DNA of 32,027 nt from Terriglobia bacterium. GTDB lineage: Bacteria > Acidobacteriota > Terriglobia > Bryobacterales > Bryobacteraceae. The notes beneath the pieces are model-generated. The model was not told the DNA's origin. It did not search any database and saw nothing but the letters and a program-made list of their open reading frames with translations. The stretch spans positions 1 through 32,027 of the forward strand of contig JAIQEX010000079.1 of assembly GCA_020073615.1 (NCBI GenBank), read 5' to 3'. Made by a program: the position numbers and the translations under genes. Below, piece after piece: positions 6,461 through 11,013 of the stretch. Positions within the stretch are counted from its first letter, which is position 1, and each line of letters starts with the position of its first letter.

Positions 6461-7081
6461 CTATTCGACCTCGATCTTTTGACCGCGCGGCACCGGCGCG
6501 CGGAACCCTGCGCTCAGAAAGGCCACCAGCCGGTCGATGCGCTCGCGGAAACTTCCGGGCACACCGGAGACCCGCGTGTAATCGGGGGCCCCGCACATGG
6601 TGTGCGCCATGGCCCCGATCATGAAATGGATGCGCCAGAGGAACTCTTCCTCGGGTAACCCGGGCAAGGCTTTGCGCATAACCGTCAGGAATCGCCCAAT
6701 GGCGGGCTGAAAATGCCGTTCCACGATACCGGGCATCAATCCCTCCGCATGCATGCGGCCCATCAGGCGGACGAACTGTGGGTTTTGGTCCGCCGTCTCC
6801 GACATGGGCGCCATGAAAGCCTCCAGCACTCTTTCGACGGACAACGGTTCGCCGCTCGCTTCGACCAGGTCCAGGCGCGCGATCCGCTCCTGATTTACGG
6901 GTTCGGACTTGCGCAGGACCACTTCGTCGAGCAGGTGCTCCTTGGATCCGAAATGGTAATGGACGGCAGCCAGATTGACACCAGCCTCGGCGATGATCTG
7001 GCGGAGAGATGTGGCGGCATAGCCCTGCTCGCCGATGAGTTTTTCCGCGGTGTCGAGGATCCTCTCCCTGGTATCAATCAT
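6461..7081 (-). CDS. TetR/AcrR-family repressor (CecR/YbiH-like)
   Basis: This 206-residue regulator has an N-terminal TetR helix-turn-helix at about residues 5-50; the segment AATSLRQIIAEAGVNLAAVHYHFGS is characteristic up to HFGSKEHLL. An all-helical ligand-binding domain with the layout of the CecR/DUF1956 group follows. It heads the efflux operon and abuts the tolC-like gene, so it most likely represses its own operon and is released by an exported compound. An in-frame stop lies 9 bases upstream of the ATG, which fixes the start at 7081 or later. The best promoter hexamers end only a dozen bases before the ATG, so the message may be almost leaderless. The regulatory assignment is by context; the ligand is unknown. 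Confidence 0.92.
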   Translation of the reverse strand: MIDTRERILDTAEKLIGEQGYAATSLRQIIAEAGVNLAAVHYHFGSKEHLLDEVVLRKSEPVNQERIARLDLVEASGEPLSVERVLEAFMAPMSETADQNPQFVRLMGRMHAEGLMPGIVERHFQPAIGRFLTVMRKALPGLPEEEFLWRIHFMIGAMAHTMCGAPDYTRVSGVPGSFRERIDRLVAFLSAGFRAPVPRGQKIEVE

Positions 7082-7093
7082 TCGAGTGATTCA

Positions 7094-7123
7094 AGCATAC
7101 GATTCAATCGAACGACTTGTCAA
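7094..7123 (-). promoter_or_regulatory. Promoter and candidate TetR operator of the efflux operon
   Basis: Read on the minus strand, a perfect -35 hexamer TTGACA (7118-7123) is followed by an 18-base spacer and TATGCT (7094-7099), four of six matches to a -10 box. The spacer contains the odd perfect palindrome CGATTGAATCG (7100-7110) directly touching the -10, and TTGAATC recurs once more downstream at 7088-7094. A repressor bound here would block RNA polymerase. Transcription would start about 5-7 bases before the tetR ATG. Confidence 0.6.
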
Positions 7124-7190
7124 GAGGGAATCTGAGAGAAATCCGATTTAAGTTTCGGTACGTAGATTGCTACGAGAAGATGCTAAGTCG

Positions 7191-7204
7191 CCACCTACGT
7201 GGTG
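7191..7204. promoter_or_regulatory. Imperfect palindromic box upstream of the small CPxC gene
   Basis: CCACCTACGTGGTG is the core of the larger palindrome at 7431-7454 with one inserted T. It lies just upstream of the Shine-Dalgarno of the small gene, in the position of an operator or mRNA hairpin. The function is unknown. Confidence 0.35.
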
Positions 7205-7224
7205 TCGGAGGAGGGAAGTCCTGT

Positions 7225-7425
7225 ATGTTGAACTGGATATCGGAACTCTGGTGCAAGAAAATGCACGTTCAGGCAATGTGGCCGATACACGGCCGGTACA
7301 TTTGTCCACAGTGTCTGCGGGAATACCCCGTGGTGTGGGAGGGTCCGGCGACTCCCGCGGAGTACGCCGATCCATCGCTGCGCAAGGCAAGCCTTCCCAT
7401 GACCTCCACGGTCCCGGTCAACTGA
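7225..7425 (+). CDS. Small hypothetical protein with CPxC motif (zinc-ribbon-like?)
   Basis: This is a 66-residue frame on the plus strand between tetR and nfo. The start ATG at 7225 has a strong Shine-Dalgarno AGGAGG at 7209-7214. The frame is open further upstream to a TTG at 7117, but without a ribosome site. The middle of the protein, WPIHGRYICPQCLREYPVVWE, has one CPQC pair, with an earlier Cys and His in LWCKKMH, which could form a mixed C/H-C/C metal site. I do not recognise a named family. The composition (one tight conserved-looking core, Trp and Cys rich) and the ribosome site argue for a real gene. Similar palindromic boxes sit before and after it. Confidence 0.55.
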   Translation: MLNWISELWCKKMHVQAMWPIHGRYICPQCLREYPVVWEGPATPAEYADPSLRKASLPMTSTVPVN

Positions 7426-7430
7426 TCGCC

Positions 7431-7454
7431 GCTGTCCACCACGTGGTGGACAGC
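7431..7454. promoter_or_regulatory. Perfect 24-bp palindrome between the small CPxC gene and nfo
   Basis: The 24 bases are exactly their own reverse complement; each half is 12 bases, with core CCACCACGTGGTGG at 7436-7449. It begins five bases after the stop of the small gene and ends five bases before an ATG at 7460. No T-run follows, so a Rho-independent terminator is unlikely. It could be an operator for a dimeric regulator, or an RNA hairpin hiding the GGTGG that would serve as the nfo ribosome site. Confidence 0.55.
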
Positions 7455-7477
7455 CGTCCATGCGGTAGCATATTGTT

Positions 7478-8341
7478 CTGCGACTGGGCATCCATACATC
7501 TATAGCCGGGAGCCTCGAGAAGGCCGCGCTGCAGGCCGCGGCGCTGGGCGCCAACACGTTCCAGATCTTTTCGGCGAGCCCGCGCATGTGGCGGGCCACG
7601 CATCCGGCGCGCGACCGGGTGCGGCTTCTGCGCGCGGCGCGCGAACGGTTCGACCTCCACCCGCTGGCGATCCACGTGAACTACCTGGTGAATCTGGCGT
7701 CGCGCGATCCCACGATCCGGGGGAAGTCGATCGCCGCCTTCCGCGGCGAACTGGAGCGGGCCGCGGCGATCGGCGCGGAGTACCTGGTGGTCCATCCCGG
7801 CAACTACAAAGGGCGCTCGGTGGAGGAGGGCATGGCCGCATTTGCGCAGGCGCTGGGCGACTCGGTGAAAGGTGTCCGTGCGCGCGGGGTCACGGTGTTA
7901 TTGGAAAGCACCGCCGGCTGCGGCGCCAGCATCGGCAGCCGCTTCGAGGAACTGCACTCGCTCCGCGAGCTAGCGCGCGGCCACACGGATCTCCCCGTGG
8001 GCTACTGCCTGGACACCTGTCACCTGCTGGCGGCGGGATTCGACATCGCGACGGCAGCGGGCCTGCGCGCCACACTCGGCCGGGTGGAAGAAGTGCTCGG
8101 CCTGGCCAACGTGCACGTGATTCACGCCAACGATTCCAAAGCGCCGCTCGGCTCGCGAGTCGACCGCCATGCGGGAATCGGGGAAGGGCACATCGGCAAG
8201 GCCGCTTTCCGGCGCATGCTGCGGCATCCCAAGCTGCGCAGCAAGCCGTTCATCCTGGAGACGCCGGTGAAGCATCCCGGCGACGACCGGCGCAACCTGG
8301 ATACACTGAAAGCGCTGGCGAGGCGCGCGGGGCGGCCATGA
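7478..8341 (+). CDS. nfo: Endonuclease IV (AP endonuclease), atypical start codon
   Basis: Endonuclease IV cleaves DNA 5' of abasic sites in base excision repair using three zinc ions. The metal-ligand blocks of the family are all visible: HVNYL, VVHPG, VLLES, CLDTCH, HANDSK followed by DRHAGIGEGHIG, and ILETP near the end. The N-terminal RLGIHTSIAGSLEKAAL is canonical and shows that coding begins well before the first in-frame ATG (7586). No ATG, GTG or TTG exists between the in-frame stop TAG (7466-7468) and that block; the only candidates are CTG 7478, CTG 7484 or ATT 7472. I use CTG 7478, giving 287 residues, about the normal length. An ATG CGG sits directly before the TAG. The stop overlaps the next gene by ATGA. 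Confidence 0.9.
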   Translation: MRLGIHTSIAGSLEKAALQAAALGANTFQIFSASPRMWRATHPARDRVRLLRAARERFDLHPLAIHVNYLVNLASRDPTIRGKSIAAFRGELERAAAIGAEYLVVHPGNYKGRSVEEGMAAFAQALGDSVKGVRARGVTVLLESTAGCGASIGSRFEELHSLRELARGHTDLPVGYCLDTCHLLAAGFDIATAAGLRATLGRVEEVLGLANVHVIHANDSKAPLGSRVDRHAGIGEGHIGKAAFRRMLRHPKLRSKPFILETPVKHPGDDRRNLDTLKALARRAGRP

Positions 8342-9659: not shown

Positions 9660-9837
9660 CAGTTACTCTGAGCGGCTGTACGCATCAGTGATGAGTTAAA
9701 GTGCCGCGATGATCGTGTCGTACACCGCCAACCGCGTCTGTTGCCGGATTGCGGTGGGGCGCGCCCTCCTGTCAACGTAGTGAGTGAACCAGACGCTCAT
9801 CTCGGTTCCATCACTCGCCTCAAGGAGGGCATTGTTT

Positions 9838-11013
9838 ATGCTACAGGCTGCCAGCCTGTTCAATCAACTTCTGCAGCATTTTCCCAGAACGGAGTTCGCC
9901 TCGCTGGTCAAGAAGCACCTGGCCGAACGCGCCGCCAAGGGTTTTGCCTGCTGGACTCAGTTCGTGGCCATGACGTTCTGCCAGTTGGCCCACGCGGATT
10001 CGTTGCGCGAGATCTGCAACGGGTTGGCCTGCAGTGAAGGCAAACTGGTGCATCTCGGCATTACCAACGCGCCCAACAAATCCACCCTGTCCTATGCCAA
10101 CGAGCACCGCCCGGCGGCGCTCTTCGAAGACCTGTTCTACACCTCGCTGAACCGCTTCCGCGAACAGCAGGGAATGGGTGCCCGCAAGGCCAAGTTCCGG
10201 TTCAAAAACAAACTTCTGTCGCTGGACTCCACCACCATCTCGCTGTGTCTGGACCTGTTCCCCTGGGCTAAGTTCCGCCGGGCCAAAGGGGGCGTGAAGG
10301 CGCATGTGCTCTTGGACCACGACGACTACCTGCCGTCCTACGTTCTGATCACCGAAGCCAAGAAGAGCGATGTTCGCATGGCGCAGTCGCTGGATCTCAA
10401 TGCCGGTTCCATCGTGGCCATGGACAGGGGCTATAACGACTACGCGCTATTCGGCAAGTGGACCGACGGCGAGGTGTTTTTCGTGACACGCTTGAAGGAC
10501 AACGCCGCCTATGAAGTGGTGGAATCCGCCATGGGGCCGTTGCCGCGCAACATCTTGGCCGATGAACTCATCCGCTTTACGGGCGCGCAGGCGGTCCAGG
10601 ACTGTCCCCATCTCATGCGGCGCGTGGTGGTTTGGGATCCAATCCACGAGCGGGAAATCGTCCTGTTGACCAATCTTCTGCACTTCGGGCCCACCACCAT
10701 CGCCGCCATCTACAAGGACCGGTGGGAAATTGAATTGTTTTTCAAAGCTCTCAAACAAAACTTGAAAGTGAAGAGTTTTGTCGGCACCAGCCGAAATGCA
10801 CTCCTGATCCAGATTTGGACCGCGCTGATCGCCATGCTGCTGTTGAAATGGCTGCACCATCTTTCCAAGGCGAAGTGGTCCTTCTCCAATCTGGCTTCCA
10901 TGCTGCGTTTGAACCTGTTCACCTACCGCGATCTCCGCCGCTGGTTGGAGAACCCTTTCGGCACGCCGCCGCTGGTCCCACTGGCCGAACAACTCAGCCT
11001 GGATCTGAGCTGA
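9838..11013 (+). CDS. IS4-family DDE transposase
   Basis: This 391-residue transposase has an N-terminal DNA-binding part followed by an RNase H-like catalytic domain interrupted by a beta-rich insertion, as in IS4. Catalytic acidic residues are seen in LSLDSTTI, in IVAMDRGYNDY, and in the Y-x2-R-x3-E-x6-K signature YKDRWEIELFFKALK, which is perfect here. The frame opens at 9784, but AAGGAGG at 9822-9828 sits nine bases before the ATG at 9838, which I take as the start. No frameshift or stop is present, so the enzyme may be active. Confidence 0.93.
   Translation: MLQAASLFNQLLQHFPRTEFASLVKKHLAERAAKGFACWTQFVAMTFCQLAHADSLREICNGLACSEGKLVHLGITNAPNKSTLSYANEHRPAALFEDLFYTSLNRFREQQGMGARKAKFRFKNKLLSLDSTTISLCLDLFPWAKFRRAKGGVKAHVLLDHDDYLPSYVLITEAKKSDVRMAQSLDLNAGSIVAMDRGYNDYALFGKWTDGEVFFVTRLKDNAAYEVVESAMGPLPRNILADELIRFTGAQAVQDCPHLMRRVVVWDPIHEREIVLLTNLLHFGPTTIAAIYKDRWEIELFFKALKQNLKVKSFVGTSRNALLIQIWTALIAMLLLKWLHHLSKAKWSFSNLASMLRLNLFTYRDLRRWLENPFGTPPLVPLAEQLSLDLS

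Follow-up and report, generated by a model that had tools for sequence, protein, structure and literature searches.

What is a perfect palindrome of 24 bp doing in the short gap before nfo, the gene of the repair enzyme endonuclease IV, in this member of the Bryobacteraceae? An earlier note had suggested that it may control nfo, either as a DNA operator or as an RNA hairpin, and that it includes the only purine-rich stretch able to serve as the ribosome site of the gene. We compared the window (the whole stretch of 32,027 nt analysed here) with a sample of its own genome, with one genome of the same genus (hereafter the congener) and with nfo loci from across the family.

Layout of the Locus

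On the + strand, a small gene is followed after 5 bp by the palindrome, then come 11 bp, the hexamer TAGCAT, 6 bp, and the CTG opening the nfo frame, which runs to 8341. The small gene (7225-7425, + strand) encodes 66 aa with a CPQC motif and is preceded by a ribosome site read from the sequence, GGAGGAGGG (7207-7215, + strand); 17 of the 18 bases at 7207-7224 are identical in the congener. Its product had no match in Pfam or NCBIfam, and relatives were found in 13 of the 61 genomes searched, our own genome and the congener counted. At 12 of 115 family loci the small gene precedes nfo in the same orientation, 60 of the 115 being searched over only about 500 upstream bases; the thirteenth match (L185) is on the other strand and has an E value of 0.71.

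Further upstream, a TetR gene (6461-7081) is carried by the strand opposite to nfo. Repeats such as GATTCAAGCATACGATTCAATCG lie before it at 7085-7115 and are mostly kept in the congener; they are likely the operator of this TetR gene and do not resemble the palindrome. Similar sequence precedes nfo in L006, L132, and L137. The gene after nfo belongs to the PEMT family (PF04191) and overlaps the nfo stop codon, a DDE transposase gene (PF01609, DUF4372) is located at 9784-11013, and a LexA_DNA_bind gene is present in the genome.

The Probable Start Codon of nfo

The palindrome does lie directly upstream of nfo, as the earlier note had it: the gene (+ strand, 7478-8341, stop codon TGA at 8339-8341) matches TIGR00587, and position 3 of this model falls on residue 3 counted from the CTG at 7478. 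The frame is interrupted by a stop at 7466-7468, after which the first ATG, GTG, or TTG comes only at 7586, and an annotation restricted to these three codons lists nfo from 7586, 36 codons short. Start codons were compared at 115 loci of the Bryobacteraceae, one per genome, from the 159 genomes with an nfo match among 200 drawn from a larger family set; the other 44 matched genomes, partial matches among them, were left out. The codon aligned with CTG 7478 was NTG at 106 of the 115 loci (TTG 42, CTG 38, ATG 13, GTG 13) and another codon at 9 loci, 8 of which carry ATG, GTG, or TTG within the five codons before it. The leucine-type codons at the aligned position, 80 in total, are without exception CTG or TTG, whereas other leucine codons make up 46.6% of the 2085 counted in the rest of the fetched nfo frames, and we thus take this position to be the start codon. 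At 24 of the 38 CTG loci the frame is closed without another start, the remaining 14 being otherwise.

The base before the codon is T at 37 of the 38 CTG loci versus 12 of 68 at other start codons, and positions -2 to -5 vary, although counts across loci, for the start codon and for this T alike, are not phylogenetically independent. A U before CUG is perhaps favoured through pairing with the base next to the anticodon of the initiator tRNA; such pairing of U(-1) is reportedly the subject of work by Esposito in 2003. In an nfo tree of 20 rows, only 3 of the 17 inner branches were well supported; the window and the congener were joined with 100/100 and the rest was unresolved.

A Predicted Leaderless Promoter

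The hexamer TAGCAT (7466-7471, + strand) resembles a -10 element and ends 6 nt before the CTG. The pattern TAnnnT was recovered 5-7 nt before the start at 74 of the 106 NTG loci (6 nt in 49, 7 nt in 18, 5 nt in 7) and at most 4 times at any other distance up to 44 nt, 60 of the 115 loci offering only about 500 upstream bases to this count. Among the CTG loci, 28 of 38 have it at exactly 6 nt. The hexamers of 76 aligned loci are preceded by an extended -10 (T 0.55, G 0.80), where the window has CG and not TG, and no -35 signal was seen in the same 76 promoters. No Shine-Dalgarno site precedes the CTG in the window; SD-like tetramers occur at 12 of the 38 CTG loci, 10 of them within TAGGAT.

Since the start is NTG by comparison and is preceded at a distance of 5-7 nt by TAnnnT at most of these loci, nfo is predicted to be leaderless, with a transcript beginning at or next to the CUG. 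A hexamer at -12 to -7 fits transcription from the start codon itself; C is not the usual first base of a transcript. In PMC3160421, leaderless genes are called from signals of the TANNNT type placed some 12 bp ahead of the start codon. Within the 1.05-Mb sample of our own genome, nfo was the only convincing leaderless gene with a CTG start, a second match, in the window, looking spurious. TAnn[AC]T was found 6, 7, 8, and 9 nt before in-frame ATG codons 7, 9, 10, and 7 times out of 687, and is only mildly raised genome-wide, so that leaderless genes are a minority in this genome. Our literature search found no report joining nfo, endonuclease IV, and leaderless, or describing a leaderless nfo with a CUG start.

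Statistics and Copy Number of the Palindrome

The palindrome GCTGTCCACCACGTGGTGGACAGC (7431-7454, no strand) is exact, with two arms of 12 bp, no mismatch, and no spacer, and it is the only perfect palindrome of more than 14 bp in the window. Its symmetry (24/24) is that of a twofold-symmetric DNA site. From base composition, the probability of a perfect 24-bp palindrome is 1.5e-7 per position, and 0.005 are expected in the window, 0.16 in 1.05 Mb, and about 1.05 in the 7.0-Mb genome, so that the occurrence is far beyond chance if one considers the window or the short gap, but not genome-wide. When 1.05 Mb of our own genome (the window and 60 further stretches) were surveyed, there were two perfect palindromes of at least 24 bp, the one at 7431-7454 and an A+T-rich one of 26 bp; in three Markov controls of 1.05 Mb each, the longest reached at most 22 bp. 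The palindrome is unusual for the gap before nfo, and chance can supply one in a genome of this size.

Other symmetric sequences were observed in the sample. Two A+T-rich perfect palindromes, 26 and 22 bp long (L077, 5795-5820, and L088, 4429-4450), are related to each other, share GCATATATATGC, and lie on short contigs. A palindrome of 18 bp, CGGAGTAACGTTACTCCG, between two diverging frames (L037, 15952-15969) is kept in the congener at 17 of 18 bases together with its flanks and looks like an operator. The inverted repeat GAGAACTGC-NN-GCAGTTCTC, with identical flanks, was present in seven copies near contig ends (near the first 120 bases in L041, L054, L055, L056, and L096, near the ends in L076 and L094), probably a repeat that broke the assembly.

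A search for further copies, which the earlier note had proposed as a check, recovered none in the 7.0-Mb genome at up to 3 mismatches; as a single copy, the palindrome is not a member of a repeat family or part of a mobile element. Nor is it a known RNA family, the two matches (E 0.86 and 2.4) falling far under their cut-offs. With up to 2 mismatches, a 20-mer of the palindrome was present in 5 of the 200 family genomes, two of them being those of the window and the congener; the sites in the other three (G113, G204, and G145) lie within open frames of at least 114 aa. The exact 20-mer gave four records in a search of genome contigs, the congener and three Rhodococcus. In the latter three, the 20-mer forms the core of perfect palindromes of 32, 40, and 40 bp that are, by a crude gene call, intergenic or in short frames of doubtful coding status.

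Conservation in the Congener and in Related Genera

The congener keeps 22 bp of the palindrome in place. The conserved block (7432-7471, + strand) comprises palindrome, spacer, and -10 hexamer without any indel inside, with identities of 24/25, 10/11, and 6/6, respectively, and the nfo start is identical at 16/16. The flanks of the block are poorly conserved, with 2/5 just before the palindrome and 3/6 in the six bases after the -10, and the background amounts to 95 of 144 identical columns for the intergenic region 7085-7206 and 175 of 210 for the small gene. At an identity of 0.78, the ungapped rate of 7085-7206, the chance of 22 unchanged bases is 0.004. Judged from this alignment, the palindrome through the putative -10 is conserved as one unit. 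Of two control palindromes, one matched the congener at 17/18 and the other at 19/20 positions, with the symmetry broken in each; palindromes are thus not rarely well conserved between the two genomes, in a control as small as n = 2.

Beyond the genus, the element is partly retained in a few genomes. Of the loci in which the small gene also precedes nfo, G086 has ACTGTCCAC-GCA-GTGGACAGT, G073 retains GTGGACAG, G131 retains GTGTCCAC, and G091 has GTCTAC and GTAGGC; G086 and G091 are the only genomes of their genera in the comparison. No such element was seen in the remaining loci among the 12 with the small gene beside nfo. The half-site GTGGACA/TGTCCAC occurs in 6 of the 115 nfo upstream regions versus a shuffle mean of 0.6, and five of the six share the small gene. 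Inverted repeats upstream of nfo reached p < 0.05, against 60 shuffles each, in 5 of 115 regions, which is about chance, and a general nfo palindrome in the family is ruled out by this count. Conservation upstream of nfo in relatives, the check named in the earlier note, extends to the congener and partly to these few genera, and not to the family at large.

Discussion

We tentatively read the palindrome as a dimer-binding DNA operator over the -35 region of nfo, an interpretation that we hold to be only just short of probable. A homodimeric regulator, most likely a repressor, would bind the palindrome, whose center lies 35.5 bp before the point where the start codon opens. The gene would have a promoter of its own, with TAGCAT as -10, no recognisable -35, and a transcript starting at or next to the CUG. 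Counted from the C of CTG, the palindrome occupies -47 to -24, at the promoter predicted by comparison, and a dimer bound there would cover the stretch before the -10 on which RNA polymerase depends and would in this way set nfo expression. The regulator, the sign of regulation, and the transcription start are what we infer in this scheme, next to a palindrome, its conservation in the congener, a hexamer with a family-wide position, and a start codon set by comparison, which can be read from the sequences.

Such an operator explains both the conserved unit and its placing at the promoter. The block kept without indels between diverged flanks, the position of TAnnnT, the missing -35 signal in the aligned promoters, the excess of half-sites, and the lack of a T-run speak for it. 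Against it stands the single copy, without a regulon: sites of the form TGTCCACN{0,12}GTGGACA were otherwise absent from the own genome, and at most one more was present in the congener, the reversed control giving one match in the own genome. No linked regulator was found, the adjoining TetR gene having different repeats in front. In other genera, the distance to the -10 and the gap between half-sites vary (the latter from 6 to 3 in G086); moreover, inverted repeats in the family are at chance level, both control palindromes are well conserved, and about one such palindrome is expected per genome. As to the control of nfo suggested earlier, an operator in the DNA is plausible, being conserved in the congener and overlapping the would-be -35. 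A hairpin in nfo's own mRNA is unlikely because the predicted mRNA, if leaderless, starts downstream of the palindrome, which is therefore outside it; the hairpin could form only in read-through RNA from the small gene upstream.

A rival reading places a hairpin in this upstream transcript. With a 10-bp stem and an ACGU loop at the 3' end of the small-gene RNA, it would stop or protect this RNA and keep read-through out of nfo, a role that we find doubtful. The palindrome starts 5 bp past the stop codon of the small gene and folds at -19.0 kcal/mol alone (z-score of the region -3.0). The stem is kept in G086 with a 3-nt loop, and GTCTAC/GTAGGC of G091 still pairs with one G-U; a hairpin accounts for the varying spacing and loop. 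However, no T-run follows the stem (CGTCCATGCGGT is found instead), although one follows several strong post-gene hairpins of this genome (L080, L090, L059, L037, and L040, others being without), and only a weak stem (-3.3 to -6.5 kcal/mol) is formed in G073, G091, and G131. In addition, the small-gene frame passes through the element in G086, while in G091 and G131 it ends with its stop inside the element, its final residues being encoded by the left arm. The conserved spacing to the -10 is not predicted by a hairpin either.

The palindrome could also have no function, being a chance or older imperfect palindrome that template switching at replication made perfect and has since maintained; template switching is described in PMC8794818 as able to create and keep perfect stems. 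This agrees with the one 24-bp palindrome or so that composition predicts per genome and with the imperfect versions that G073, G091, and G131 have in this position, from which kind of ancestor the perfect palindrome may have grown. We nevertheless consider it unlikely, the conserved block reaching through spacer and -10 and ending sharply, and both controls (n = 2) having lost their symmetry in the congener where the palindrome kept 22 bp. Finally, the proposal that the right arm holds the only possible ribosome site of nfo, hidden by pairing with the left arm in RNA, is very improbable: GGTGGA (7445-7450) is indeed purine-rich, but the start codon set by the 115-locus comparison, CTG 7478, lies 27 nt past it with the -10-like hexamer in between.

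Preferring the operator, we note that there would be nothing unusual in a palindromic operator confined to a single gene of a single genus, and the palindrome alone is of modest interest. It would be out of the ordinary, however, for a repair enzyme of many genera to keep a CUG start on a leaderless mRNA; in leaderless mRNA of Escherichia coli, CUG, GUG, and UUG are reported in PMC9031893 to be much less efficient than AUG. The larger surprise is that nfo is predicted to be leaderless throughout the family and often to start at CUG. In full, the proposition that nfo of the Bryobacteraceae is expressed from a leaderless mRNA, with CUG at a third of the loci and a near-obligatory U before it, and that one genus gained a palindromic operator over the -35, is one that we regard as possible and somewhat short of probable. 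If it is true, a repair gene would be under two unusual layers of control, the leaderless CUG start and the palindromic operator. The aligned nfo promoters offer a ready test of how far bacterial ribosomes accept CUG and of the help given by U at -1.

Comparison With Known Systems

Like intrinsic terminators, the palindrome gives a G+C-rich stem after a gene; unlike them, it has no T-run and is followed at once by a promoter-like hexamer. Dimeric repressors of the TetR, LacI, and MarR types bind palindromic operators, which the palindrome resembles by its perfect twofold symmetry, its size within 20-30 bp, and its position in the -35 region of a predicted promoter; it differs from them in having neither a known regulator nor a second genomic site, and in a spacing that is not kept across genera. 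The predicted promoter, for its part, resembles that of the TA-led leaderless genes treated in PMC3160421, which have TANNNT about 12 bp upstream, as found at nfo, and which occur in Acidobacteria among other groups. In contrast to these, nfo of the Bryobacteraceae is one gene that keeps the arrangement family-wide, with a CTG start at 38 of 115 loci.
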